Below are positions 12,801-51,455 of a DNA stretch of 64,000 nt, piece by piece. Source of the DNA: Owenia fusiformis (lineage: Eukaryota > Annelida > Polychaeta > Sabellida > Oweniidae). Position 1 is the stretch's first letter. Each line of letters opens with the position of its first letter. The notes under the pieces were generated by a model, which saw nothing but the letters and a program-made list of their open reading frames with translations, had not been told where the DNA came from and ran no database searches. The DNA lies in contig CAIIXF020000008.1 of NCBI GenBank assembly GCA_903813345.2, positions 15,546,822 through 15,610,821 on the forward strand. Reading direction: 5' to 3'. Both the position numbers and the translations under genes were made by a program.

Positions 12801-15243
12801 AATATAAGAAAATGCATTATGAACTAGTCTAGGCCTATTGTAACGGTACAAACCTTGTGAAATAGAAATCCGGATCAATGTCCATAACTGTCCGTGTTAA
12901 GTGAAATATACCTTATATGGACCGTCCTTTAGTGTAGCACCATATTTGGCATATTTTTGTTACTTCAGTGCAATTGCAATTTGTTTATTAATGACCCGTT
13001 TTCTCTGACGTTCACCAGCATACTAACATTAAATTCTTACATCATAATTCAAATATCACTATCCAAGAAGAGTATTTGCCAATCAAATTAAAATGGTGAA
13101 TTAATTCAGGACTACACATCCGCATCTGTAAAAAATATTTTCCTCCGATTTCTCACTCTCTCAGCAATTTCTGGTGCCTCAAAAATAAGATGAAATTAAT
13201 TGGTGAAACCATTAACTCTATTAGATTAATAAGGTGCTATTTCAATTGTCTTTGGGGGACAAACATATGTTACACACTGACATATATGATTTACAGCTCA
13301 GTTAAAGACAGACGTGGAACTATTTTGGTTAATGTCTTGGTGTATTCTGCATTGTCATTTGAAATCTGCATTATTTCCTCCATTATTTTCCAACATTTGT
13401 CATTTCCATTACTTTGTACTCATTTATATTTACGTTTGGATATTCCTTTTAGAAATAAGCTTGTGATAATTTTATTCTCATTATATTGCTAAAAAGTCTC
13501 AATTCAATTTCCAGCAATATCCCCAAAACTTCCTTATTTCTAAAAATATACATCTTTTTTTTATAAACAAAATATAGGTTTATGGTGTAGATGTAAATAT
13601 TAGTTTTATTTCATTTTTTTTCAAAGACATACATTTCTACAATTCATACAAGCAGCACATCTATTGTCTACATACATTTAAAAAATAAATAAAAAAAGAC
13701 TTTTAAAATTAAAACATCTACATACATATTAACTAGCCTATGTAAGTATAAATGTAGGATTTCCTCTTTAGGAAACTGAGGAATCATAAATAGGGAATGG
13801 AAATTGACTAAAACCAAATCTAGCAAATAATGAATGGGACACTTATGCATCACATTTGTTTCTTCATGATGTGTCACATCAATAATGTTTGTGTCATTGT
13901 GTAGGTGTCACATCATACAAGTGTCACATCATGAAAGTGTCACACCATGCTAGTACTCAATAAAAAAACAGCAACAACTATAAACAAAAAATGAAAATTC
14001 TATTTGACTGAAGTTATGAAACTGCGGCAAAAATAAGGAAGCATCATATCTCCATTCTACACCATGAGGGTATTGTAGCCATATATTTGATATACATTCA
14101 ACAATACTATGAATGTACAGTCCAGTCAACTTTACATACTGTATGTGTAATTCTGTCCATACTTTTGAATCACCCCAAGTGTGTCATTTCACAGGGCTTC
14201 CAAAATATTGTCAATTCTAGGGTTGTTTCAGTATTGTTTCAATTTCAGTATTGTTTCAATTTCAGTATTTTTCAATTTAAGCTAATAGTTTTATTTCCTA
14301 CTTTTCAATCACTTGAACCTTTTCTCAAAATCATAAAAACTGGCCATTTGGGCATTTTTTAGTATTCCCTGACTTGTTCAGGTCACCTTGGCAACTGACA
14401 ACCCTATTTCATTAATCATTAATCATGATGCACAAATTACTTTGAATTGACTGGACTGTATAATCGCAGTTAAATGTTGATCAAGTACATTGTATGTGAA
14501 TGATAGTATAAATACATGCAAAGTGTATATGTTCATACAAAAGCGTTAAAATACATATATACAAAGTTTGATTCAATAATATATTATTATTCATGATATT
14601 CATGAATTTAAATTCTACAAATTGCACCTGACATATTTTCGTAAAATCACCAAATAAGTTTAAAAACTTATTTGGTGATTTTCAAAAAATCATGTTACAG
14701 CAGCCAAGCAATCACCTCAAATGCACCAGTCAAAGGACAGATCATCAATAATTTCAAACAATTTGAAAGACCTAATTTGTAGCTTCTCTGAAAAGTACTT
14801 TGTATTTTATTCATCATTTCTTAAAAGGACTAGACATTTTTCATTGGTGTATAATTTGCCTAAGATATAAATCAACTGTCAATACCATATTGTCACACAA
14901 ATGTAGACATGAAATCAAATCATTTTCTTGAAATAAAAACTCAAGTTGTTTTTTTGGTAAGAATATGTATTGAACAAATTTTAGTTAATTTCACTATGAT
15001 TTAATGTTATATTTGACCTTTTGTCTGGTGCAGTCAAACGTGCAGCTAGGCCAATTTTTCAAGACACAAGGTCCAGTTTTCTGTAAGATCCCTTTTTGTA
15101 GGATCATATAGAAAAGTGACCTCAGTTCTCAACATGAACCTTTAGCCAAAATCCTGAATTACGTTTCCTGATTTAAGTGGCAAGAACAGACAATCACGAC
15201 AAGAGAGGGGATGGAGGTGAACATTTTTGATCTCTGATCCCTT
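9884..15243. other. No gene recognised apart from the palindrome
   Basis: AT-rich intergenic DNA with simple-sequence patches (gtgtcacatcat words at 13895-13950, tttcaatttcagtatt words at 14228-14275). ORFs of 60-113 codons are AT-rich and lack domains. The KASH gene 3' UTR could extend into the upper part, but I cannot fix a polyadenylation site. Confidence 0.55.
14643..14682. other. Perfect AT-rich palindrome, 19-bp arms
   Basis: AAAATCACCAAATAAGTTT, a 2-nt spacer, then its exact reverse complement. It is isolated in noncoding DNA. It may be a hairpin-forming remnant of a tiny foldback element. Confidence 0.9.
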
Positions 15244-15662
15244 TACCCCCTCCCCTCAAGTCTGTCAATGAGCCTACACCTGTATTACCCCCTCCCCTCA
15301 AGTCTGTCAATGAGCCTACACCTGTATTACCCCCTCCCCTCAAGTCTGTCAATGAGCCTAAAACTGTATTACCCCCTCCCCTCAATTCTGTCAATGAGCC
15401 TACAACTGTATTACCCCCTCCCCTCAAGTCTGTCAATGAGCCAACAACTGTATAACCCCCTCCCCTCAAGTCTGTCAATGAGCCTACAACTGTATCACCC
15501 CCTCCCCTCAAGTCTGTCAATGAGCCTAAAACTGTATTACCCCCTCCCCTCAATTCTGTCAATGAGCCTACAACTGTATTACCCCCTCCCCTCAAGTCTG
15601 TCAATGAGCCAACAACTGTATAACCCCCTCCCCTCAAGTCTATCAATATGCCTACAACTGTA
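15244..15662. repeat. 42-bp tandem array with open frames on both strands
   Basis: Roughly ten copies of a 42-bp unit, plus-strand core ctgtcaatgagcc and taccccctcccct. The unit length is a multiple of three, so both strands are open over about 150 codons, encoding artefactual 14-residue repeats (LRGGGNTVVGSLTD on minus, LYYPLPSSLSMS on plus). Variant order shows a higher-order period of four units: the aaactg, caattctg and ccaacaactgtataa variants recur 168 bp apart. I see no gene context for either ORF. The array lies about 2 kb beyond the KASH stop codon. Confidence 0.9.
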
Positions 15663-15959
15663 TTTCCATGATCTGCAAGTAGTTATATTGAGCATTCATT
15701 TATCTCTGTATTAACTATTATGGATGTTTCCCCTGAGTGTAGTTACTAAAAAATAATCTGTTAAAGGCAAATGCATAATTTCTTTTTTCTCATATTATGA
15801 AAGAACACATTTTCTTAACCCTCTAGAGACATAATCATAATCAGAAGCATGTTTCTTCAGAAAATAAATGTTGCATCATCAAAACAATGTGACATCTCCT
15901 TTAAAATTATGGCACTTTCCTGGGAAAATTACATATTTCACAGGAAAATTATTTTCCAA

Positions 15960-16650: not shown

Positions 16651-17189
16651 CTGTGCAAATTCTTAAATAAGTTATTATTTCACAGATCAGGTTTTAGTGT
16701 TTTTTGACATGTTTGCATATAAAGTTAAGATGAACATTTCATATCACATGACGTGTTTATCCTCACAACATGCACAAAGTGACTTATTAGGAAAGTCTTG
16801 AACGTTAGAATATGGCCATATATGGGCATATTCTATTATAGCACCTTTATGATTTTCGCTTAACCGTCCTATGCAACCAATCTAACTATACAGTGTGTAC
16901 CAGCCTAGGGGCGTGCATTCATCTTGTTTTGATCTTTACCAAATGAATACTTCCATGTAATTTGTATATGAAAAGAACATGATAACTGTTCCATTTTTCA
17001 ATTTTCACAAGTGGGTCTGCAGTCCCTATGGCACACACTGCTCATATGCCTCAAAATGTGAAATATTTACATGCATATATATATATTGATGGATAACATG
17101 TGGCCCTATTCCAAGTAAGAAAAAATGAATATTTGCACCATATTTAGATCTATTTTTTACATATCAAGATGTATTGGTACATCTAAGAA

Positions 17190-17706
17190 TAAGGGCAGTT
17201 TTTCGCATATCTCAGACCTTTTACACATCTCAGCTTAGAATGGGGTCAGACCTTTCACATATCTCAGCTTAGAATGGGGTCAGACCTTTCACATACCTCA
17301 GCTTAGAATGGGGTCAGACCTTTCACATATCTCAGCTTAGAATGGGGTCAGACCTTTCACATATCTCAGTTAGAATGGGGTCAGACCTTTCACATATCAG
17401 CTTAGAATGGGGTCAGACCTTTCACATATCTCAGCTTTGAATGGGGTCAGACCTTTCACATATCTCAGCTTAGAATGGGGTCAGACCTTTCACATATCAG
17501 CTTAGAATGGGGTCAGACCTTTCACATATCAGCTTAGAATGGGGTCAGACCTTTCACATATCTCAGCTTAGAATGGGGTCAGTTCTTTCACATATCTCAG
17601 CTTTGAATGGGGTCAGTTTTTTCACATATCTCAGCTTTGAATTGGGTCAGACCTTTCACATATCTCAGCTTAGAAAGGGGGTGGGCCTTTCACATATCTC
17701 AACTCA
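17190..17706. repeat. 34-bp minisatellite overlapping the end of the KASH coding exon
   Basis: About 16 copies of a 34-bp unit occur here, with some 31-32-bp variants. On the minus strand the unit core is GAGATATGTGAAAGG followed by tctgaccccattctaagct. The most gene-proximal unit is the last coding segment of the KASH exon itself, and the rest fall in the presumed 3' UTR. Noncoding units align base-for-base with the coding copy except around the Pro-Pro-Pro codons. The outermost copies near 17190-17240 are degenerate. Confidence 0.95.
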
Positions 17707-17856
17707 GGATTAAGTATGATGCCCAAGTCTTTTGTTGCATCATTGACTCTTGGGTCCAGTATACATGCAGCTAGAAACACTGCTACAATCATGACTTGGA
17801 CAGGACGGGCGGCCCTTAGTATTCTCTTCACCCAAGACCTTCCCTCCACATGGGCA
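17670..17856 (-). CDS. Exon K: KASH domain (membrane anchor and SUN-binding tail), stop codon
   Basis: The coding part is 187 nt, phase 2 in, with acceptor ttttgattgtttccag. After a basic juxtamembrane stretch (GRSWVKRILRAARP) there is a ~16-residue hydrophobic helix (VQVMIVAVFLAACIL). The luminal tail that follows is 28 residues long and ends LNPELRYVKGPPPF, then TAA. The LRY-x-x-GPPP signature is the KASH peptide that inserts between SUN protomers. Compared with vertebrate nesprin-1/2 the tail is about two residues shorter. It has Asn at position -23, where those proteins carry the Cys that makes a disulfide with SUN. The stop codon lies inside the first unit of a 34-bp tandem array. Confidence 0.95.
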
Positions 17857-20800
17857 CTGGAAACAATCAAAAGAACTTACATGAGTATAGATGTGAAATG
17901 ATGGCAAAAACAGACCTTGTTGTCTGCTAAACAAAGCAGTAACAAAAATTGGGTGTTCTATATATTTCATGAAAAATCAGATTAATGTTTTGAGGGTTTG
18001 AACAATTGCAAATATCAAGGTTATGACAGTCATAATCTGCTAAACTATATGGTAATATATGTAAATTAAGAAAATGAAGTAATTTCTTTTAACCAGCGCC
18101 CATTTGTTCTTACCTGGCCTGGTCTTCTGTCTCTAAGCACTGCTTCAGTTCTGTTTGTGTTGTGTTCTCCTTAGTTGCACCAGTCACACCACTAGCCCCA
18201 CTTGCATCAGTAGCTTCAGCCACAACAGTGGCATCAGTCTCATCAATAGACATTAGAGTGGCATCAACAGCCAACCCATCTGTCTCTGTGGTGGCACCTT
18301 CCTGGGAATCCATCCCACTATCCTGACTAGAATCGTCCTCTGTTGCCTTAGCAACTGTAGTTGTCTCCATAGCAACTTTACTTGTTTCAGGCTGGATTAA
18401 TTCAAGCTGTGATGCCCCATCTGATTTGAAGTCACCGGTGTTAAGTCTCTCTTCAAACGCAGCCTCTAATCGTTCACATCGGAGTTTTAAACTGGCTAAT
18501 TCATTGGCAGTTGTCCCGATATTAGCACGTATTTCATTTTTTCGCTCCGTGTCAGCAATTTTACAAATGTCAGCTGATATATTGCGAAGATTTTCTAGTT
18601 TGTCATCATATTTGTCCAAGTCAGATTTCATCCCCTGGAAAAATAAATCAAACGTGATTATTCCAATATGATATGATAATCAGTGTCATTATTCAGACTA
18701 GATGTCCTATTATATTATATGTCCTCACGCTGCACATCATCGCTGGCACAATCTGAGCAAAACCAAAAAATGTTCACGATACCGAAAATTCCCTTTTATC
18801 ATAAGACATAAACTCATAATTTTAAAAGTAAAATGTTAACTTAAATGAACAGCTCCTATATGGTACATACATGTCATGAACTCAAAATTAATATAAAGGG
18901 ATTCATTTCATTGGTTTATAATAGGGAGTAATATTGTTAATTCTGTTTAAAGGGACGTAAGGTTATAAGGCATCACAGTAAGATTTTTTATCATTGATGT
19001 CTGACATATTGCCGTTGTGAATAATGTGGCAATCTTACAATATTAGTGGAGCGATATCAATAAAGGCAGAGGTTAAACTAATCCGTCAACCGTGGAATAT
19101 TAAGAATAGCATCAGTGTCTCTGATGTTCATTTCTATGAAATATTGAACAGGCGTCCCCAAGAGAGTTAAATACAAACTTTCACGATGAAGATGATTTTC
19201 TGATAACTTACGCATGCACTATTAATATTCCTAATTTAAGAGGAACAATTTTTCAAAGATAACAGCCTGAAATGATTTGTCTATTTCCAAAATGTTCACG
19301 TTTTGTACAAACCGGTTGGAAATAATGAAAATCACGCATCAATGCCTTAAACATTTTTCATATTCATATAAACTCTAATTCTAGACATTTTTTTCAAAAC
19401 TACTCCACGAGGCAATAAAACAATTTAATTTTATAAACGGAAGCCTCCAGCTTGGGAAATTAGATGGATCACCGTGAGACATATTATTTACTCCCTATTT
19501 GACCAACCAATTTAAAGTGCTCATCATTATGCTAATGCAATTTCACAACATTATCACCCAATATGGCACAATGAATTTTCAGCCTAATTATCTGATAGAA
19601 TTACCAGCCGGAAAAGAGCTGAGTTGAACCCTGTATACCTTATTAACCTCTAAGTTATAACTACATTTCTATTGAACCCTTCGCAAGAACCAAACCTCAT
19701 CTATCCTCTTTATATGAGAGATAATGCTTAAATAATATACAATAGGGAGAACCATGATGATACATTTTCTGCTTATTTTTTCTACATATTCTACATAATG
19801 GATTGTAAATATGATTAATATGACATAAAATAACCTTAAAATTTTGCTTATAAATAGCTTACACAATGAGTGCTTCATTTGAGACTGTAAGATAAGCACC
19901 AAAACATCAAAATCATCTGTAGCACTAAGAGGGTAGGTTGACTAGCTGAATGTGATTCAGGGTATGATTGACCATGTATTCTGTCTTATATTCATTGACA
20001 CTATTAATATCATGTCTACAGAGGAAGAGGATAAACAGATATATATGTAAGAGGACTTTAAGATAATCATCCATGGCTAGATCATTAACATTGGTCCATC
20101 TGTAATTGTCATACATCCATTTTGCATTATAAATACTGTAATCTGAAATTAGTGAACAATTTATCGATTGATCTTAACTTTTGCCAAGTTTTTCACCTTA
20201 GACTTTCTTTATGACTCTTTCAATCATGGACTTCATTTAACAGTATAACAAAGACAGGACATGTAGTCAGTGAAGTTTTGGTACATTTCCTAAAAAATTG
20301 CACCATTCAATGAGGTCACAAGGTGAAAAAGCGGAATGGAATTTCCATTTGCCAAAATAGTTATGATGGACAGACAGATGAGTCAGAGATTCCCAAAACA
20401 ATTCAATAACATCAATATTGTGTCCCCCATCCTTATTACACCATGGCCCTTTAGCTGTAACATCCTGTCTCAACCCAGCTTTAACTCGACCCCTTGCCCC
20501 CCAATGACATATTGAAAATTGACCTTTGACCTGGGAATCATAAAGATTCATTGGCTCAGAGGCAGATCTATGTGACCTTTGACCTGCACAATCTGTGACA
20601 AACATCAGGAGATAATTAGAGGCTCAGTTATCATGATGAATCAACAAGATGACACTTATTTATGGGATTCACAGAAGATTGATTTTATCTCTAGAAATAG
20701 AAATTAATTCTGATGCAGACATTTATATCAGAGAATAACTACTCAAGTGACATCTATCAATTGGTTGTGAAAAATGTCGATTGAGCTTCCTTCTTATTTT

Positions 20801-23800
20801 TATTACACTACTAGCTCCCTCTATACTAAATGAAAATGACAAAAGTGAGCCTCCAATATCTAAATAAACAACCCTCAGCCGGTTAAAATGAAACCACTGT
20901 GCAACCAATTTTATTCAGGTACCAAGACACTAATTTCCTGCAGTCCACAGGTCCCTCTCTTCCTCTGACTCCCTAGATATTATATATTTCCCTATGGATA
21001 TTTCAGAATCAAAAACATGTCAATATATCAAATCAATTCGAAAGGTCTGTTTCTCTGGTAAATCACTATTTTGATGCATTAAACAAATTTCTGTGTCTGT
21101 TTGACCTTACTTATGAATGTTTACCTTCAGATCATAGAGAGTATCCTTGATATCCTGCTCAGTGAAGTCAATGACGTCATGAGTGAGCTCTAGACACTGT
21201 AGCTGTCCTTCCTCTCGATGAAGTAAATACTTAAGCTCCTCCATGGTCTCGTCATGGTCGTACCATGTGATCAAGGTAGACTTGAACTCATCGATCTTCT
21301 TGCTCGACCTTACAATAAAATGTTAATCCATCAATTTAGTGTTTTTGCAGTACATTCCTTGCCAGTTTATCAAAATCTCATGTGTGAATGACCGAATTCA
21401 ATCAGCATAGATTTAACGTTATGTTTTCAAGGTGAATTCCAAACATGAAATGGATGCCAAAATGTCCAGTATTTCATTCCAAACATATTGCCAGATCATA
21501 TTCAAAGGGATTTAACAATTATACAATGTGACCGTTCTGATATACTGAGCCAAATACAGGAAAACCTGTAAAGTGGAACACCTGTATGTGAAACAATTCT
21601 AAGTGGAAGACTATTCCTGTTACCATTACTTAATACAAAAATGAACCTCTGTACAAAGAACACCTCCCAAATCGAACACTATATTGAGGTACCAAAGGTG
21701 TTCTACTTACGCAAGTTTTAATGAATTGTGTTTATGCTGAGTTAAAATTAACTTCACACTGTACTAATTTAAAACACAGCATTTCCATCTTTGAGTTATT
21801 CCCCTAAATCCATATATATCCATAACACATGTATTTACCTGTCAGCCACTTCTTCAACTTGGTCAGAGAGAGTCATGGTTTCCTCTTGGAACTTTGTCAT
21901 GCTTATGTGTTGGTTCTGCCTAGCATAGCTGGCTATCTCATTCTTTACTCTTTCCAGGTCATCTCTCAGGGGTTGTACATCAAGTCTGTTGTTCTGTAAC
22001 ACATGGAATAGCATGTTTAATACTCTTTCTGAAAGATCAACTTCTATTCTCTTTCATTAGAGACAATAAAATATGTAATCAGGAAATCACATCATTACGT
22101 TTTCTGCCTTAAAGTAGTTGATATTCATTTTATTTCACATTACTCATACAATTACATAGAAACAGTGTATCAACATAACAAGGCAATAACATGGAAAATG
22201 TCATAACCTGCCATTTGTTACAGATTGTGACAATTGAATGCCATTGAATGTTATGCCAAACACTGTTACAGATGCCACACACCATCCATAAAAAAGTTAG
22301 AGACAATAACAATTTGTGACCACTTGTTGGAGAATAAGGGTGCCTGTTTATAAGTACGTCAATCTCAGGTTGATACAAGGTTGAGTTGACCTTTTTCACT
22401 TCAAACTTGTTTTGTTTTCAAACAAAGTAATATTTTCTCAATAAATGTTTTAGAATATCTTATTGATTTAAGACATTCAGGAATGTTGGCATTATAATAT
22501 TTCAATCAAAATATTTAACCAGGATTTACAAAGCTCTATTTTTATAATTCATAATAAAAATATAGAGTGAATGTAGGCCAGAATTCCTATTGTAATCGCA
22601 ACAAAAAGGCCCCATGCATTGACCTACAAGAAGAGTTGCCAGAAATACCTGAATATTGTTAACTCAAAATGTCAGCCTTGAAAAATTGTACAAATCTGCT
22701 GATGATTATGTACATTGATCAAATGTCATGTAAAATATGCAGAAATGCAGTATTGGATTGCATGTGTTTCAAATGCTCCATGTGGTAGTTTTGCATGATG
22801 CAAGTTTTCATTTGTTCTCATAATTCTAATTAATGATAATTAAATGGTTCATATTTTTCACATTTCAAATGGCAGAATTTGCAGAAAGTATGTCCATGGA
22901 TACATTTCATATTTTTATATACCTCTATGGTATGTCTGATGATAAAGCTCAGTGATAACAAATACTGTACTTCTACTTCATTTGGTGCTACTTATTTGGC
23001 AGAATTGCTATTTTGAACATTTGGCGGCTACTTAATTTGGCGGATTTGCAATATTGAAATGTATATACTACACATATTTAAGATTGAAATATGAAATATT
23101 GAATTTGGTGGCTACTTAATTTGGCGGACTTACACAAAACGGCTGCCAAATCAGTAGAACTACAGTAGCCCAGAACAGATTAACCGAATACTGTAAGCCT
23201 TTACCTCAAGTTCGCCTTACTTCCACCTAATCATAAGGTCATCTAAACCTCACTTTTAAACATGAAACAAATGAAAATGGGAAAGTGTGAACCTTCAAAC
23301 AGCTGCCAAAATATTCCTAACCTTGGCAATGACTAGCATTTTAACTCTCTGCATCAAATGATAACAGTATTTTGCAAATGAATGACATGACATGAAACCA
23401 TCCCATTCTCCAAATGGAAAAGCGAGAACACAGGTGATGGTATTTGGAACCCTGCATTCGGAGAATGGAGCATCTCAAAACAAACAACATTTGTTCTAAA
23501 TTAATTTTGATTTTTCAATCTAAAATTCAGTACGGATCCAGCTATACCAGCTATACTTGTTTATAAGTGCTGTTTATTACAATGACTATTAATCAATGAG
23601 GACCCTGGGGCTTTCCTTCTGTGAACAGGAATAATGCAACTATGATACATTTGAAAGTGAGTTATGATAAACTATGCCAACTGGTGATATAAATCTTTCC
23701 AGAACCCAAACATTAAGGAAGGCCTGGTACAATGACTTTTGACTGATTATAATAATAGTATCACCCAGGTTAATCATCCTGCCTGGCCCACCTAAGGATC

Positions 23801-26800
23801 CTGTACCATACTTGTAAAATAAAAAAAGCTAAACTTTATAATACTACATACTCATATTTATCTAATTTATTAAATGTAAATCATACAAAAACCTACCTAC
23901 TGTACCTATAGAGCTATTTTGCAATATCCTCGTTAGTAACTTTCTACCTTTAGCCACATTTAACATGTATCCACTAATACAGTTCTACAGGCATGTTAAC
24001 CTAAATGTTGTTTACTAAGCTTTAAAAAACATGCTGTTCAGTTAGTTTTTATGAGCCAAAAAACTTGAGGGCGTAAGGTCAAAGGTCACTTGTAGATTGT
24101 TTATATTGCCAAGGTAAAACAGCTATATGTAAAATAGGTGGGTTGTTTTGTTTGATGAATTTTCACCTTGAATGGGCTTTTGAAGTGTTGACAGCTCATA
24201 CAAAACTTGAAATAAAATTGAAATGTTGCTCTTTTAACTATCAATTCACTGTTTGTATTGAAATACACGCCCAATTTTTTCAATTTGATCAAGTTGAGTG
24301 CTAAACAAATATTAGACTTTGACGTATCTAAGTTGTCCTATCTATTTTTCTATTGACTGATATAAAAATGTTATTTTGAAGTCTTTCATACATAGAAACA
24401 TCCTTGAAAATTTCAGATGAATCTCTCAAATGGTTTTGCTGAAAACCTGTAGACAAGATTGGGACGCCTACACGATTGACTGCCCGACCGGCACACTGAT
24501 GACAATATAGCACCCGAGGGAGCGATAAAAATATCACCATTCCATTTTCTCACATAGAAAATGCTAATGAGACAAAAGTAGGACTTGGTATCAATTGTGT
24601 AGATTTCCAGGATGGGCCACCATGTAATGGATAATGTACATTGGCTCTAGCAGTTTTCATTTGTCTGAAAATTGTTGATGGATGAATGGAATGATGGGTG
24701 AACAGAAAGAAGGATGATTGCGTTATTTAATATGAAGTAATATCCAGACAGCCACAAAAACCTGCAGATTTGCTGCAACATTGGTACATATTTTTTATTT
24801 TTTTTTGTACATGTACAAGGAGTGATCAACAAATAATAAAAAAGAGCCCTATCTCATAAAACACCAAAATTGGCACATAGCATCACTAAACATTCATTAT
24901 CATTTCCAGAAAATCCGATGCACATATATAATATATTGTATCTAACTTATAACAAATTGCTCCAATTACCTGTAAATGTTTTACTGCAGACTCTAATTTG
25001 GAAACATCTTCAAACACATCATTGCCCAGTTCATCTTGGTATTCTGCCAGCGTCTGTGATAATGTCACAAACTGTTTATAGATGGCGAGAAGATCACGTG
25101 ACTGTGCTTGGCGCTCTAAGCCTAAACTGTGAAGAGAGTCCCACTCAGCTAGAGTGTCTGTAACCAAAGAAAGATGGCGCATTTTAAAATTAGTTTTCAC
25201 AAAATAATTCCTCTTTTACAGAGATTGCAATTTAGCGAGATCAATAGTGCAAAAATAGTTCATTCAGGGAACGAAGCGTGAAACTTTCCACATATCATCA
25301 GAATACCATTCCCTTTGATTTAAGAGCCAGAGCCATTTTTGTGGTCCACTAGAATGATCAAAAAATAGTAAGTACCCCCTCCCACCAAATCCCATGGGGG
25401 TGGGGAGATATCGAAATATTTTTTTCATAAAAAAATTCTTTGAATATGGTCATACTACAGTTTAAGAGTGGTATTTTCATGGTAAAGAAATTTTGCAATC
25501 ATAACAAGATGATTTATCATCGATTTTCATCATTGTTAAAGACTAATCATGGGCGACGCCCACTTTTCATACCTTGAACATTTAGGTTATTAAATCTCTA
25601 TCATGGGTTGAACAAATAAATGTAATTCAGTTTTCTGGATAGCACCAGATACCTTTTTGATGTAAGGTGCTATAATCAATCTTTGCATTTGACTTTTTAA
25701 AGGCTTACACCATATCACAACCCTGTTTAGAAGAAGAAAGCAAGCAACAAATGTCCCAGATCTACAACATGTATCCACTATTCTATGTACATGTATGAGT
25801 CTTTATACTCTCCTGAAGAGAACCTATGCTACAGACACAACTGTCCAGAATTTAGATGATGATGTGCTTAAACAGTTTGATGAATGGTGTGCTAACCAAG
25901 TGCCTAAACAGTTTGATGAATGCCGTGAACAGAATGTACCAGTCTTCAAGCTTTGGTTTCTGTTTATTCAAATTGAAATACTGTGCCTTGACTATGTGAG
26001 GGCTATAGGACAGGAGAATTTTCCTCTTTATTTCCAGATGGTTTCTCTTTGATTTTCATAGTTGTTAAAGACTAGTCATGGGTGACGCCCACTTTTCATA
26101 TGCTGAATTTAGGCTATTAAACCTCTTTCATGGTTTGAACCGGAACCAGAAGGGCCGCCACAGTCACAGCCTGCAGTCTCTAAATTCTCAAGAGAGCCTA
26201 TACTACATATACAGCTGTCCAGAATCTAGATAATGAAGTGATAAACAGTTTGATGAAAGGTGTGCTGACCAACAGAATGTACCAGTCTTTAAGTTTTGGT
26301 TTCAGATTATTTGAATCGAAATACTGTGCCTTAACTAAGTGTAGGCTATTAGAGAGGGAAATTTCCCTCTTTATCTCCAGTCAATTATCAAGCTTGTCAC
26401 CTGGTTTTTCGTTTTTTGACCTTATCAATATGCTTGCTGAGTACCAGTTCAGTATATCATCAGAACTCAAAGTTCAAAAATGGATAGCTTTTGGAAAAAA
26501 ATTAGAAATATCTCACTTCCCATGAAATTGCAGCTGCCCTTTGACATGGTAGGACTATGTTCTCCCCTTATCTCATGCTCCCACAGGTTCAGACACTACA
26601 CCAGCAAAGGCTGGGAAAATGATTTGGGTGCCAGTGTAGAAAACATTGCCCCAAGCTTCAGATGCAAGCCAAACGCTAGTAAAATGCAGGGATTGTAATG
26701 GACATGACACATAGCTCAGTGATAATGATAATAGAGTGTTGAAGTGCTTAAATGCACAAAATATGATATTTGAACTGCAGTTAAGATACCTAATAAGGTA

Positions 26801-29800
26801 ACTTGTATCAATTAGTCAAAGTGCTCTCATTAAAAGCCAAAATAATGTATCATTAATTATGAATTATATATTATTATATCTTTATATCTAAAAGGGATGT
26901 GGCCTTTTAATTGACTTACTTAAAGAATTTATCATCTTAACATAAATAACTGACTTAATCTTATCAATTTTATTCAGCCTTATTAGGTAATTTTCCTATT
27001 CATAATAGAAGACTCATTAACTTGTATATTAACATGTTGATAAAGTGGGCGTCGCCCTTGGTCAGGCTTTAATAATGAATATCCATGAGAAATAGGATCC
27101 AATCTTGAAAATTGTTTTTATACACTGAAAATAACATACTAAAAATGAATATAGATCATATTCAAAAAAAAATCAACAAAAAAATACTCTCCTCCACACT
27201 TGCAATTTTTCAGATATCATCAGGACACCATTCCCTTTGATTTAAGAGCCAGAGCCATTTTTGTGGTTCACTAGAATGACAAAAAAGCACTTGCATCTTT
27301 TTGTTCAGCACTGTTGTTTGCAGCTGCATTTTACTAGCATTTGGCATGCATCTGGAGCTTGGGCAATGTTTTCCACACTGGCACCCAAATTATTTTCCCA
27401 GCCTTTGTGGTAATGGATTCCCAACTCAATTGTGAGGGTGAAGCGAGGACTGACATAGGTATAATTGTCTTGAACCAACTTATGCAACTTATGGTGGGAT
27501 GTTCTTATGGTGGGATGAGACACATAGTCCTACCATGTCGAAGGGCAGCTGCAATTTCATGGGAAGTGAGATATCTCTAATTTTTTACTTTTCCAAAAGC
27601 TATCCATTTTTGAACTTTGAGTTCTGATGGTATACTGAACTGGTACTCAGCAAACATATTGTCAAGGTCAAAAACAAAACAAAAAAACAGGTGATAAGAT
27701 TGCTCATTGACTGGAGATAAAGAGGGAAATTTCCCTCTCTGATAGCCCACACTTAGTTAAGGCACAGTATTTCAATTCAAATAATCTGAAACCAAAACTT
27801 AAAGACTGGTACATTTTGTTGGTCAGCACACCATTCATCAAACTGTTTATCACTTCATTATCTAGATTCTGGACAGCTGTGTATGTAGTATAGGCTCTCT
27901 TTAGAATTTAGAGTCTGCAGGCTGTGACTGTGGCGGCCCTTCTGGTTCCGGTTCAAACCATGAAAGAGGTTAAATAGCCTAAATGTTCACTGGTACTGGT
28001 ACATTCTGTTGGTCAGCACACCATTCATCAAACTGTTTAGGCACTGGGCCAGCACACCATTCATCAAACTGTTTAAGCACATCATCATCTAAATTCTGGA
28101 AATTTGTAGCTGTAGCATAGGTTCTCTTCAGGAGAAAATAGAGACTCGACATACATGTACATAGAATAGTGGATACATGTTGTAGATCTGGGACATTTGT
28201 TGCTTGCTTTCTTCTTCTAAACAGGGTTGTGATATGGTGAAAGCCTTTAACAAGTCAAATGCTACGATTAATTATAGCACCTAACATCAAAAAGGTATCT
28301 GGTGTTATCCAGAAAACTGAATTACATTCATTTGTTCAACCCATGATAGAGATTTAATAACCTAAATGTTCAAGGTACAAAAAGTGGGCGTCGCCCATGA
28401 TTAGTCTTTAACAATGATGGAAATCAATGACAAATCAGCTTGTTATGTTTGCAAAATTTCTTTACCATGAAAATAGCACACTAAAACAGTAGTATGACCA
28501 TATTCAAAGAAATTTGTTTATGAAAAAAATATTCCTATATCTCCCCACCCCCATGGGATTTAGTGGGAGGGGGTTCTTACTATTTTTTGACCATTCTAGT
28601 GGACCACAAAAATGGCTCTGGCTCTTAAATCAAAGGGAATGGTATTCTGATGATATGTGGAAAGTTTCATGCTTCGTTCCATGAATGAACTGTTTGCCTG
28701 TTTTCTTGCACTATTGATCTCGCTAATTGCAAAATTATCAGGTTTAACATAAGAGCTGGTCAATATTCGTGGTTTCAATTCATCATGTGCTTAGTTCCAT
28801 AAAGGTAATATCCCGGTCAACATAATATAGGGACTTGTCCATATTTTGTAGTTAATGATTTCAGTTCATCATGTACTTAGTTCTAGATAGGGGATATAGT
28901 ACGAATGTCAATATATTCACCTTCCATTTGCTGTAGGTCTTCTTCAGTGAGGTTTGCCATGCCCTGGTCTGACTCCAATGTGTCACTGATCACCTCAAGG
29001 CATGTGATGTTCATTTGGCATGTAGCAACCACTTCAGCCTGACAAATGAGAAAAAATATTTTTTTATAAATTCACACACTGGTAATATGGGTATCAGCAC
29101 ACATATCAACATCATGAATTATGTAGAAGCTCTAACATCTCATATCTAATTCAAAGATTGATAAATTGCAAATTCATATTGGATAGACATCAACTTAAGT
29201 AAATGTAATGTGTTTCTTAAAAACAACTAAAATCTTGGACAATTCATTTATGTACAGATTGAGACTGCTACTAATATAAGTGACTTGCATCAGAAAAGCC
29301 CCACTAAGCTTTTATCACTCCCAATCACTTTTCATAGTTTTACATGTACATTATTACTTACATATTTAGATGGGTCAAGGTAGATCCCAGTATCCATGAC
29401 ATCTTTACGATATTTCTTAAGAACAGCAGCCGCAACATGAATCTGATCAGTCGATTCCTTGATCACATGATGAAGATCCTCGATATCAGAATCAGAGTCC
29501 TCCATTTTGTTCACATCACCAGTGAAGCCACCTGGTGAGGGTTTTGGTCCCTAGAAATACATAAATGTAAAATCAATGAATGTTCAATGAATGTTTCTAA
29601 TCCTGGCGCTTCTTGACTATATTCAAGTATTTCACCAAAATTTTGACGCAATTTTGGTCAGCAGTACAATGAAAAGTCTTTGAGGGTCTTTAGGTTCAAA
29701 ATGAATGATCCAAAATGAATACTTGAATAAAATGTTTGCAAAATTGAGTCTGAGAGCAGTGAACTTTGATTATGAAATCGCAAATCCAAAACAAATACTT

Positions 29801-32800: not shown

Positions 32801-35800
32801 ACACAATGTTAAAAACAAATATCAACTCCTCGTCTAAAATAAAGGTTACTTATAATATTAAAGCCAATGTCTACATAAAAGCAAAAACTGAACTCATAAT
32901 CAAAAAGTATGCATGTAAAGATCACAAAATAATATAATAAAATACAGATAAACATAGGAAACCTAAAAAGCTAGCTTTATCAACTAATAATATGAAACTA
33001 AAATGCAGCAATGCAAAATAAGTGAAAATATTAAATAATCAACTCTATAAAATAAATAGAAAGCGCAGCTTGAAAATAAATAAAAATAAAATACATTTAG
33101 TAATACATGTAAAAATAATTACAAAATGTGACCTGGACATTATATTTTTATGGGGGACTTCTTTGCTCATCATATTAAGTACATGGATTTTAATGGCCAG
33201 ACCACATTTTGAGGCTGTTATACATGTACATGTTGATCAAGGGAACGATGAATAAGCCATAAAAGATGCTGCTAGAAGCTGTATAGTGCAGATGAACAAG
33301 ACAAAAAGGCATACACTTAACCGAGATTACTTACTGAATATTTCAGTGCTGTGTACCCAATCTAGTTGCAAAGAAAACATAGTAAGCGAGAAATAAATAT
33401 GACCTGTACATCTAACATAGTCTTGCATCAGGTTCACCCATTATCTGTTTCACCAGCCTCGAGTATGAGAGTAGGAGTAGGGGGAAACGGGGGCTTGATG
33501 CAAGACTAGACTACGAAGCGACAGTGCTACTATACATAACATACACATGTACAGTACATCTAAAGCATGAAAAAGAATGATTTACAAAACGTCTATTGTA
33601 AACCCTTTTTACAATTATATAAAGTGACTGTAACAAGCCTGTTCTTCCTATTCATATTCTTTTCAGAAAAATTGTATGGACTATAGCACCATCTTTAATT
33701 TTTAAGATTAATGTATACAGAACAGAAGAAAAGAAATGAATATATTTTCATTGAAGTTCATGAAATTGGTTGATTAGAAAGGCAAAGACAGAGCTGGAAA
33801 TCATAATCATCCCTCCAAAAAACGGTGCTAGGAAAGTAAACAAATTCAATTGATAAATCATGTGGAACCTTCCCTCTACTCCAGACATATGAGCAAAGAT
33901 ATGCCAGTATGTACAGAATGAATATATGGGACAAAATTTAGAAAAGCCCAGGTGCCAGGATCCATTGTGCTGTAATGGGACCATATATGGGACCATTGTG
34001 CTGTAATGGGACCATATATGAGACCATTGTGCTGTAATGGGACCATATATGGGACAATATACAATCTAGCAGAGCATTGCAGGAACACAATGGTAGGAAA
34101 AACTGACATTTTCTGTGGTGTCCACAAATAAGCAATAGCTCCAACATGGGCAACCAATTAAAATGTAAACCTTGGAAGGTATACATCAGAAATAATTCTT
34201 CATTATGACAAGAACCACCCCCCCCCTACAGTGTACAGCAAGTTCAAATGAACCTACCTGATAGTTGTCCCATGCCTCTTCAGAGAAGGATTCCACTGTG
34301 CTGTTGATGAGGTCATCTGTATTATCAGCACTACTAGCAACTTTAACATCTACAAATGTAAAGGAAAAAAAAACATCATGGCACCATTACATTTTGTCAC
34401 ATACGTTGACTAAAGAGGTCGTTTGCTTGAATATTGATTAGTTTGAATAGTCATATGGCAATCCTCAGAAGTCAATAATTCATAAATAGTTCCCAAGCTG
34501 CTTGGACTTTTTAGCAGGATAAGGAAATTTAATCGAAGCATCTATCTATAAATCATTATCATGTTAGAAAGAAGTCAACTACAAGTGTGCTTCAATGCAA
34601 CATATCAACGTCACTACTATGGAAGTAAAAATAAATTATTATTTATATTGCTATATTAATCTACATTACCTGGTACATGTTCAACATCAGATCCGCTTTC
34701 ACTGCCTGAACTTCCAGATCCATTCCGCCTTTTAGACCTGCTCTTTTTCTTGCGTCGTTGACTGATGTGACTTGGTATACTAGTTTTAGGCCTAGCGCCA
34801 TTATATGCATCAGATGATGTATAACACTGGGCAATGTTCTGTGAGTTGGTTAATGTTTCCCTTGAATTTGAGCTATATTTACTTGAGAAGGCACCAGTAT
34901 TCAGTTCTTGGCAATTTCCTGGGAGAGACAGAGTGGCTTCTGGAGGTGAACAAGGTGCAGTTTCTGCATTCTCAAATATTTCTGCCGATCCTAGAGAATC
35001 GTGGGACTTTGTGATGTCACTGTTTTGTTCTGCTTCTGAAATGGAGCGCTTTAATTTCCGTGATTTATTCCTGAGTTTTCTAGTTGGTGTTCCGACTCTG
35101 AGACTGTGTGTGGATCGCTCAGAGTTTGTCCTACTGAGTCTATCACGACTGCTTGCGGCACTACTACTTTTGCTTCCTCTCTCTCGGGGGATATTGTCAA
35201 TGGCACTCTCTGATATAGAGAACGGGGAGAGATCCAATCTATTTGTCAATTCGTACATTTCGGTCACACTTGATGGACGATTTCTTTGTTTGACTGGTGA
35301 GCCGAGATTTGATTGGCTGTTGTGTCCGCTACTTAGCAGGTCGCTACTGTGACTTGTTGACATCCTAAGAACACTGTTATACTGCTCTTCATCACTGGAA
35401 GCTGTGGAGTAATACTCCGCTTCAGAATTACTTGTGTATTCCCCACTTGCCTCACACGCACTGGCTTCACCTAACATAGAGCCCTCAGTGCTGAGTGTAC
35501 TTGCTAAGGAGTCAGTGGGGAGATCACGTGGAGAACTCTTTGAAGAGGACAAGTCTGGGGATTTACATTTAGGAGGTCTAAGATCTGGGTTAGTTGATTC
35601 CCGACTGTGTAAAAATGTGATAGATTTATGCACTTGTTCATCATCCATCACCAGAAGTTCCGCTTGCTTGATCAGCCGCTTTATTGCTTCCTTATTTGGA
35701 GATCTTGGTGGTGCATCTACCTGTTCTTCCATGAGGAAATCATCTGATATGAATCCATCTTCTCTCTGTAGAGCATCAGAGTCGACTTGTACAGACAGAG

Positions 35801-38800
35801 AGTCTGATGTTCCAGACCCTTCCTTCCCCATACCTTCTTCCTCACCTATTGTTTCTTTACCATCTGTGACGTCACTTGTATCCATGGCACCAAAATCTAA
35901 GCGCCGTGCAATCTGTTCAACTTTTCCAGATTCCTGATAGGTAGCTACATCTACCCCAGGGGATTCCCCTAGGTTTGGAATCTGGAAGGGTTGTGCCTTA
36001 TATGGTGTAAGGCCCACATCATGAGTGGGTGGGGACTGGGAGAGAAGACCACAGGTGGCATCAACATCTACTGAGGTCATCTTGTAGTAATCCTTATCAC
36101 CAGATTTAGGTATACTTTTAGGACCTGATTTCTCGACAGCGCTGTCTTCCTCCACAGTTTTATGCTCATCATCATCTGTTGGTGAGTTGTGATCACTACT
36201 TGTGTCATACGCTGATGTCATAGAGTGTCTCCATGACGACTCGGGTAAACTTGACACATTAGTCAAGCTGGTATCATTCATCTCATCCATTGATACATCC
36301 CTACTATGTGAGGTTTTCTGCCGTAGCTTCACACTTGATTTATCCACATGGCTGGTGTCAATGCTGGCACCCGACTTCATAGCTTCATGTTGCTCGTCGT
36401 TGGAGTGACTCTCACTGGAGTAACCAATATCATGGCTTTCAACCTTTACTCCGTATTTCTGGGCATTTTTAGCCACCAAACGGCTCTCCATTGCAGATAG
36501 AGATCCTAGCTTTCCACTTGAATTCCGTGGCTTCAATTTCGTGTATTCATCTTCTTGGAGATTAGAATTGTTGTGTTCTTTACAGTTTGCTGTTTCAAAG
36601 CTGTAGTCGGAGTCACTCAGGGCTGCAGTGACATCAACATTATCAATGTCCATGTAGTCTTGTTCATCTTTTATGTTATCTTCAAGTGCCTGTAGTTTAT
36701 CCTGTAGCTCTTTGCTGTACTCCTCAACTAACTCATTTGGCTCGTTCTCTGAATCATCTTCAATCTTTTCGTATTCGTGTTCATCAAATGGGATTACATC
36801 ACCGTACTCATCACTGCTGTATGGTGACTCGTTATAGTCGTCATACTGTGCTTGTCTAGTGACATCGCGGGGTTCAGGCCGTGGGAGATCAGAGTGTGCA
36901 GTGTTGTAGCTGAAGTCACTCCAATTAGAGCCACTGCCCTCGCTTGTACGGAAGTTACTTCCTGTTAATACAGTCTGCAAATAAATAGCACAATATATCA
37001 ATACATTGCTCACTTTATATCAATAATATTTAATATGCGTTTACAAAATGAAATATTCTTCAATGCAGGTCGTCTATTGTGTTGACAATACCTTCACATA
37101 CCTGTGCATCATGCTTTTAACTTTTCTTATACGTTTTTTGTCAATATGTATTGACCTTTCTGTATTATAATAACCGATTTTAATTTTTTCTGAATTGAAT
37201 GCGAGTCCTTTGAATGAACACTTTTGAATACAGAAATATCAGTAGGTCACAATCAAGCAAAATCTATTAAATCCGTATTCTTGTCTGACTTATAAAGCCT
37301 AGCAAGGATATCATAACCTTTCACAGATCATAGGAGTAAAAGTTAATAAAAATATAGCACGGAGTATGGTCATTATATTCCTTTAAGCCACCAATAGAGT
37401 AAAGGTCAGTTCACATGAAACTATGGATGACCATTGAAGAGCACTTAACTCTGTACATCCATATACGGATACACCTGGGGTGCATCATGTACAAAACTAT
37501 TAATTTATGGGAAATATTTCAATAAATATATATTTCAGTTAATATAAATATGAAAAATTGGAATAATGTTTTTTGTGATTCTTTACATGTAAAATAATAT
37601 GAAAATATCAATGCAGGTATACATCTTAAGAAACGTGATTAAAGGGACGTGACCAAAGGCAATGAATTCTGGGACACGAACATGACGTGACATTAAACAT
37701 GATTTTCCATCATAAAACTCTCAACCTGCTGGTTGCTGTGACTTTCTATTCCTAGAGTTCTAATTAGCATTTGGTAATATGAGACTTTATCAAAAGATAT
37801 CCTTCAAGTATTAATAAGTGACAAAAATAAGGCCAATTTAAATCACTAGATTACTCTCAAAATAAGAAAATTTATATTAATATATTTATAGCTAGAACTG
37901 GCACTATCAGACTCAAATTGATTCTTTAAATCATGAATAATCTCATAATTGTGAAATCACAGACCCAGTGACCTAACAGGTGTTGAAATAATAATTTTCA
38001 TTTTATCGATAATTCCGCGATAATTTCCTATTTAGTTAAGGCACAATCCACGACACTTGTGGTTGATAATCTACTTATAAATGCTGAAATTGATCCTTAG
38101 TGCGACATGAGTTAACAATTTAATATCACGGCTATTGTTTTTATGATTGAACATCAAAGAAACAATTTCATATTTCATTTTAAATACTTTTTTAATAATG
38201 GCTTGTAATAAATGACTTTAATGAGATTATAACAACATCTGTATCAGATTTATGTGCGACTGTTTTTGTCCATGCCTGGAGACACTAAAATATTTGTTTT
38301 TGTATCATATTTTTGTACTAATAATCAGATCTCCTGTATAATATATTAAACCAGATAACCCCACCACTGTGTGATCATTGAGTTTTAATAACATAATGAA
38401 TCAAATCAAACACAGCGGAGATAATAATCCCGCTATAATCCTGTTTTATCTAACATCAAAGCGATCACAAATTCTCCTTCACTTGAATTCGATCACTTAC
38501 TTCCATATGTATCCCTCGTCTAGTAGTAAACAAATATGCAGGTACTCCATAATATCGTAAAAAAGAATTATGATGAGTTTTACCTGATCGCCATAGCAAC
38601 CAATCTAAACTCTCACAAAATGTTGACCTTCGATCTGAGATTGAATACTTTATATTGTCAAAGGCAACAGTTACTATCTTGACATATTCTAAATGAATAA
38701 GTTTGGATTATTAATATGGTTTTTTCTGACTTGTGACGATCCCTCATCTCCAAAACATTTTGTTTTGCATTTCAAAACAAAGCTATCAACCTAAGAAATA

Positions 38801-50561: not shown

Positions 50562-51098
50562 CTGGAATTACAATGAAATGAATTAAGTCCTATGCATAAT
50601 GCAGTGTAACTCTTGTACTATTGCATACAGTTGCATATATACATGCTCTATAGCCCAAAGCTGTTGTTGAACTTCCTTATCTTAAACTAACAATTGTCAG
50701 TAGAAAATATTTTGAAAAAAGAAAAACTCTCGGGGCTATGATGAGGTAATAATTACTACTCTTGGGTTAAGTTGCACTTTGGCTTTCAACTAGTTTATCA
50801 GAGTTTAAGACCTTTTATATCATCAAAATCTACTATGACATCAATTATGTGAGACTGTTGCCACTGGAATTTCAAATTTAACAGTACTGTTAGAAGCCCC
50901 TGTCGCTCTCTCTAACAATTTCTCAAACACAAGTCTAGCTACAAGCCCTTGTGAGCTACAAGTAGTGTGTCGTTGACATAAGGGGGAGGTCCTTTGTCTT
51001 GAAGCAAAACTACACAAACACACGAGGGAAATAGATACTGAGGGAGAGCTAAGTAGACATCAATAGGAAATGTCTATAAATTGTGTGGCATATTGTTA

Positions 51099-51455
51099 CT
51101 TATTAGGAAAAGAACTCTCTTTTATATTTACTAGTGCCAATATTTAGTATATGGTTGCTATGGTAACCCAGACTTATTAAGAAAAGAACTATCTTCATTT
51201 ACTTGTGCCAATATTTAGTATATGGTTGCTATGTTAACCCGAACTTATTAGGAAAATAACTCTCTTTATTTACTAGTGCCAATATTTAGTATATGGTTGC
51301 TATGGTAACCCAGACTTATTAGGAAAAGAACTCTCTTTATTTACTAGTGCCAATATTTAGTATATGGTTGCTATGGTAACCCAGACTTATTAGGAAAAGA
51401 ACTATCTTCATTTACTAGTGCCAATATTTAGTATATGGTTGCTATGGTAACCCGA
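51099..51455. repeat. 71-bp tandem repeat, about five copies
   Basis: Five copies of a ~71-bp unit, recognisable by cttattaggaaaagaac, gtgccaatatttagtat and ggttgctatggtaaccc. The ends contain the palindrome-like gttgctatggtaac. It lies upstream of exon A on the gene strand. Confidence 0.92.

Follow-up and report, generated by a model that had tools for sequence, protein, structure and literature searches.

A 34-bp minisatellite probably born from the terminal codons of a KASH gene in Owenia fusiformis

A gene on the minus strand of Owenia fusiformis, coding for a protein that ends in a KASH domain, closes inside a tandem array of 34-bp units resembling its own last codons. This minisatellite was probably born from the end of the KASH gene, by way of a founder copy without the PPP codons and subsequent array turnover, with the PPP of the coding copy kept by SUN binding. 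Such an origin is of a kind already known, that of minisatellites born from coding sequence, and is mechanistically ordinary. The window referred to throughout is the whole 64-kb stretch of DNA that was analysed; all positions are those of this window, and the gene end is read on the minus strand.

The KASH domain and its gene

The minus-strand frame ending at 17670 is closed by a KASH domain (Pfam PF10541, E 1.1e-7, 32.5 bits, cut-off 23). The match is full-length, covering profile positions 1-58 of 58 within the open frame 17673-17876, and the tail of the domain, NPELRYVKGPPPF, aligns with the tail of human nesprin-1, HPMLRYTNGPPPL. With a Pfam score over the curated cut-off and this alignment, the identification of the tail as KASH, made earlier in a sequence-only reading of this DNA, is borne out. 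Used as a query against the PDB, the 29-aa tail retrieved two nesprin-1 chains, aligning ILNPELRYVKGPPPF over SFHPMLRYTNGPPPL with a best E of 0.79, a weak value obtained with a short query, and a 68-residue query matched none of the solved structures at E 0.001.

In the numbering used in PMC6527376, the tail holds PPPX, Gly -4, Tyr -7, Leu -9 and Pro -11. The PPPX motif is described as a C-terminal feature of KASH domains (PMC5371868, PMC6527376) and here, as in KASH proteins, it is placed directly before the stop codon (GPPPF-stop). The segment LRYVKGPPPF additionally carries the KASH-type Tyr -7 and Leu -9, which are reported as buried SUN contacts in the human complex (PMC6527376). Position -23 is occupied by Asn instead of Cys, the nearest Cys being found at -30. 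In longer KASH domains, Cys -23 forms a disulfide with SUN (PMC6527376). Since the same source describes a short KASH domain without this residue, and in vitro binding that is independent of it, Cys -23 is not treated here as defining. Binding of this KASH protein to a SUN domain in the perinuclear space is predicted.

The last coding exon (17670..17856, minus strand), recognised by the Pfam match and the nesprin-1 alignment, encodes the transmembrane segment and the lumenal tail ending in NPELRYVKGPPPF. Its putative start is set by an acceptor motif only, TTGTTTCCAG, at 17866-17857 on the minus strand. The stop codon TAA (17670..17672, minus strand), taken from the list of open reading frames, is part of the repeat tract, as judged by the register of the upstream extension described below. 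The probable preceding coding exon, which is acidic and would be spliced to the KASH exon, is located at 18114..18634 on the minus strand, within the open frame 18110-18679. It is recognised by its predicted splice motifs only (acceptor TTTTTCCAG, donor GCCAG/GTAAGA) and holds no Pfam family above cut-off.

Spectrin repeats were not matched by Pfam in any of 15 open reading frames (12 on the minus and 3 on the plus strand). The only match under E 0.001 in this search, Cadherin_3 for the frame 21110-21322, is taken as a chance result (E 0.00029, 21.2 bits, below the cut-off of 25.5). The frame 50136-50567 weakly matches utrophin chains, with an E of 0.026. A minus-strand open frame of 787 codons at 34659-37019, acidic, serine-rich and with no Pfam match at E 0.1, is likely to be a giant exon of the KASH gene.

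Structure of the array

The array is reported by TRF as 14.6 copies of a 34-bp unit with 93% matches, at 17212-17701. Delimited by hand, the copies comprise the coding copy, 13 complete noncoding copies of 32-34 bp each, an 18-bp remnant, and a diverged 32-bp unit, all of them read on the minus strand. The coding copy (unit 0, 17665..17698) reads RYVKGPPPF-stop followed by GCTGA. It is identical to the consensus of the 13 complete noncoding copies at 29/34 positions, differing from it at unit columns 14, 16, 17, 18, and 23, and both the earlier reading of this copy and the earlier claim that the 34-bp unit is the terminal coding segment itself are upheld. Next come the noncoding edge units 1-3 (17563..17664), with 2, 4, and 2 differences from the consensus and with units 1 and 2 devoid of a stop, and ten homogeneous core units, 4-13 (17230..17562), three of them 32 bp, one 33 bp, and six 34 bp long. 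The degenerate distal end (17180..17229) consists of the 18-bp remnant and the diverged 32-bp unit, which ends in ATTCTTAGATG. Between 17366 and 17562, the three core units of 32 bp are found without one GA of GAGA, and the one of 33 bp without a G.

When read in the KASH register, 9/13 complete noncoding copies give RYVKGLTPF-stop, the form that had been called typical in the sequence-only reading. Unit 3 gives RYVKELTPF-stop, and units 1, 2, and 7 have lost the stop in this register and run on to 22 residues. The noncoding consensus thus reads HSKLRYVKGLTPF-stop, as against the NPELRYVKGPPPF-stop of the gene. In place of the CCA of the coding copy, CTG is found in every one of the 13 complete noncoding copies, in agreement with the previous observation that the noncoding copies resemble each other and depart from the coding copy at the PPP codons. 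The diverged distal copy also has CTG at this site, at which the 18-bp remnant is not unambiguously alignable. Other copies of the unit were sought by BLAST in the 64-kb window, with matches of only 10-14 bp. An exact search of viral contigs with 30 bases of the unit gave 0 matches, and a KASH search of viral contigs gave 14 pattern matches, none of them confirmed.

The array had been described as following the stop codon, a statement that has to be corrected. Directly upstream of the 34-bp coding copy, a 12-bp extension, ATCCTGAGTTGA (17699..17710, minus strand; codons NPEL and the first base of R), is identical to the unit end ATTCTAAGCTGA at 9/12 positions. As good an extension was found for 32 of 20,000 random 40-mers from the window, in a null model that was set up after the sequence was seen. 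The repeat tract covers approximately 17180-17710 and, because the similarity runs these 12 bp further upstream, it includes the terminal Phe and the stop codon. With its distal end closing with ATTCTTAGATG, the tract opens and ends in a common short motif, as would be expected if short direct repeats had flanked the seed. In the model of Haber and Louis, as described in PMC3389668 and PMC6947457, minisatellites are seeded between short direct repeats, given as 5-10 bp, or as 5-20 bp in one survey, which are presumably identical copies. The 12-bp extension is a probable flanking microhomology of this type, although its being imperfect, with 9/12 positions in agreement, speaks against seeding by microhomology.

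Direction of descent

The noncoding unit keeps L(-9), R, Y(-7), and G(-4), all of them shared with human nesprin-1. As these residues are KASH hallmarks, the coding copy is most likely the source of the array, which agrees with the earlier proposal that the coding copy is ancestral and the array its amplification. If the repeat had come first, the presence of LRYxxG in its unit would be a coincidence. This motif, which was chosen after the sequence was seen, is encoded by 80 of 100,000 units drawn at random from a Markov model that preserves the neighbour frequencies, in any register and on either strand. The direction from KASH domain to array is therefore the better one, and the most likely, as argued entirely from conservation within the family.

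In the opposite order of events, a repeat already present downstream would have taken the place of the end of the KASH frame or lengthened it, and RYVKG, Phe, and the stop codon would come from this repeat, with PPP being regained or retained. The fact that the last residue and the stop codon of the gene lie inside the repeat tract would agree with such an order, as would the 11 other tandem-repeat loci of the window (period of at least 10, at least 2.5 copies). It would need, however, the chance occurrence of LRYxxG just described, none of the 13 complete noncoding units contains PPP, and the unit has no other copy within the 64-kb window. An origin of the array before the gene end is for these reasons considered highly improbable.

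Together with the array at the KASH gene, the tandem-repeat loci selected from the TRF output with these same thresholds are 12, and cover 1,902 bp, or 3.0% of the window. At this density, we estimate that chance alone would place a few percent of stop codons within or next to an array. Finding one at a gene end is hence unsurprising in this genome, and the case is probably not rare in kind.

Loss of PPP and homogenisation

PPP is absent from 13/13 complete noncoding copies, edge units included. A loss common to all of them most likely took place in the founder unit, and not through later homogenisation, so that the array probably descends from one altered founder.

The divergence among units was assessed by pairwise counts rather than by a unit tree, given that there are only 34 columns with little variation. 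Core units 4-13 show 18 substitutions in 45 pairwise comparisons, and edge units 1-3 show 82 substitutions in 30 comparisons with the core. The core units are thus more alike than the edge units, as for a minisatellite under concerted evolution, and a homogeneous centre with diverged ends has been described for satellite arrays (PMC5615363). The coding copy is 5-6 substitutions away from the core units, and 7, 8, and 6 away from units 1, 2, and 3, respectively. It had been suggested that the repeats were homogenised while selection held the coding unit. This conclusion does not follow from the divergence of the coding copy, which is itself an edge unit: edges diverge anyway, and its separateness could be explained by its position alone, with no need for selection.

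The distribution of the differences is odd. All five differences of the coding copy fall within 10 bp, four of them in the PPP codons and one at the wobble position of the Gly codon, with none in the other 24 positions. The probability of such a clustering is 0.012 for any 10-bp span, 0.012 for at least four differences in the nine PPP positions, and 0.0009 for the 10-bp block as chosen, a block picked out in hindsight. Differences from the coding copy would be expected all along the unit of an unconstrained array, but the other sites, where drift would be unhindered, show none. Plain drift of the array does not predict the cluster.

The cluster can be read in two ways. According to the first, the change was clustered from the beginning, in the founder. 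According to the second, exchange is ongoing: conversion from the array overwrites the coding unit on both sides of PPP, and selection removes only those conversions that reach PPP, so that the coding tail would evolve in concert with the rest of the repeat family, except for a single protected island of approximately 10 bp. This would account for the identity of the coding copy to the consensus at 24/24 positions outside the PPP block, among them synonymous sites and the variable V and K codons, against 5/10 differing positions inside it, and for the reappearance of differences (3/12) directly upstream. The conversion tracts, on the other hand, would have to stop within the 11-13 bp of identical sequence on either side of PPP, unless selection filters them. 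Moreover, the block was recognised only in retrospect, a single clustered mutation in the founder gives the same pattern, and the 7 substitutions between the coding copy and the adjacent unit 1 are no fewer than the 5-6 between the coding copy and the core units. Ongoing exchange is consequently judged unlikely, and a clustered change in the founder is preferred as the simpler explanation. If exchange were nonetheless ongoing, the array would be a standing source of null alleles of a nuclear anchor, and from the size of the island one could read directly how long conversion tracts are in vivo in the face of selection.

The altered block, GGTCTGACC, is a short palindrome, as judged by eye, and a templated local mutation is a possible source of it.

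A model for the birth of the minisatellite

The proposed series of events starts with a stretch of approximately 34 bp, comprising the codons PELRYVKGPPP, that would have had an imperfect 12-bp direct repeat on its two sides, namely ATCCTGAGTTGA within the coding sequence and a similar sequence holding the stop codon. Slippage or unequal exchange between both repeats would have duplicated this stretch downstream of the gene end. The first noncoding copy would then have lost its PPP codons through a change from GGCCCACC to GGTCTGAC. Expansion to about 15 copies by ordinary minisatellite turnover would have produced the uniform core and the diverged units at both edges, whereas the coding copy, at one of these edges, would have retained PPP because SUN binding needs it. 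If the seeding did take place by microhomology, a relative free of the array would be expected to show NPELRYVKGPPP followed by a stop region similar to TTTCTAAGCTGA.

The stop codon itself may have belonged to the flanking microhomology, or the duplication may have created it. Given that 34 = 3x11+1, a duplicate placed behind PPP is read in a shifted frame. A second copy right after PPP would read TCC TGA, providing a PPPS-stop at once at the KASH position, which would later have become TTC TAA. In silico, duplication of the 34 bp from 17710 to 17677 does indeed yield NPELRYVKGPPPS-stop. Nevertheless, this scenario relies on a coincidence, because a stop at this place was already required in the ancestral gene, and fewer steps lead to the same sequence if the microhomology existed beforehand at the old stop codon. 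A stop codon made by the duplication therefore has a very small probability, and flanking microhomology is kept in the model.

Transcript and genomic surroundings

Eight poly(A) signal hexamers were searched for up to 2,500 nt behind the KASH stop. None of the eight is present between the stop codon and the end of the array, and AATAAA and AGTAAA are absent from the whole 2,500 nt. The candidates found are an ATTAAA at 1,364 nt and, as the nearest weak variants, AATACA at 497 nt and AATATA at 585 nt. The absence of hexamers up to the array end fits a transcript that would cross the array. The RNA of the array (17180-17672) folds better than 100/100 dinucleotide shuffles, with a z of -3.46. This result is given no weight, since tandem copies multiply any weak complementarity present in the unit; possibly, the palindrome GGTCTGACC, found in most units, pairs between copies and aids the fold.

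Among the other repeats of the window, ten copies of a 42-bp unit are found at 15243-15664, approximately 2 kb behind the KASH stop. Both strands of this array carry an open frame, of 162 and 158 codons, 42 being a multiple of 3. Five copies of a 71-bp unit, with 92% matches, are found at 51098-51453. There is also a large imperfect inverted repeat, 25253-26560 and 27522-28695, formed by nine arm pairs of 65-379 nt that are 81-97% complementary. Six of these pairs are collinear over stretches of approximately 1.3 and 1.2 kb, and similar peptide-like open frames are found on opposite strands. The structure resembles two copies of one repeated element in inverted orientation, which might lie within a KASH-gene intron.

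Tail exchange and mutational hazard

The consequences of an exchange between units were explored in silico by substituting each of the 13 complete units for the tail, beginning at its Arg codon. None of the resulting 13 tails contains PPP: nine end in RYVKGLTPF-stop, one in RYVKELTPF-stop, and three are extended, with 22 residues in place of 9. The LTPF tail lowers the KASH score from 32.6 to 22.2 bits, which is slightly less than the cut-off of 23, although the domain can still be recognised, with an E of 0.00017. The earlier suggestion that recombination could swap in a non-binding tail is thereby supported in one of its parts, the removal of PPP by any complete unit, with loss of binding being a prediction.

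This prediction derives from work in which PPPX is described as essential for SUN binding, and the addition of a single alanine after PPPX as abolishing it (PMC6527376, PMC8115505). On these grounds, both the LTPF and the extended tails would be expected to be non-functional. The same sources, dealing with a change of Tyr -7, indicate that changes of single contacts can be milder in vivo than in vitro (PMC6527376, PMC8115505). If an exchange took place upstream of the PPP codons, PPP would be missing from the new tail, and 3/13 units would extend the tail. Such alleles may arise by exchange with the array, whose units would serve as non-functional donors next to a motif that is essential. The array may thus be a measurable mutational hazard.

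Comparison with known systems

Searches of the literature for a KASH domain together with a minisatellite retrieved no such case, as judged by titles and the beginnings of abstracts. A second search, for minisatellites at a stop codon or in an untranslated region, retrieved no such case either, its match concerning another gene.

In the minisatellites of Haber and Louis (PMC3389668, PMC6947457), a unique segment flanked by short direct repeats is amplified head to tail, the same motif opens and closes the array, and further turnover takes place by exchange between copies, all of which resembles the case presented here. Those descriptions concern mainly seeds derived from transposons. Here, in contrast, the seed would be a functional coding end including its stop codon, and the flanking repeat is 12 bp long and imperfect.

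The protein resembles nesprin-type KASH proteins in its full PF10541 profile above cut-off, its PxLRYxxG, and its terminal PPPX before the stop, and differs from them in the Asn that replaces Cys -23 and in having its stop codon within a tandem array. Another related system is the coding minisatellite of the Prdm9 zinc fingers, where, as here, repeat turnover touches the protein sequence (PMC3890296). The repeats of Prdm9 are translated, though, while in the KASH gene only the first copy is, and the rest are kept behind the stop. The interest of the present case lies in a seed that is identifiable and constrained: with the seed still recognisable and its coding copy under constraint, the founding changes of the minisatellite can be given a direction.
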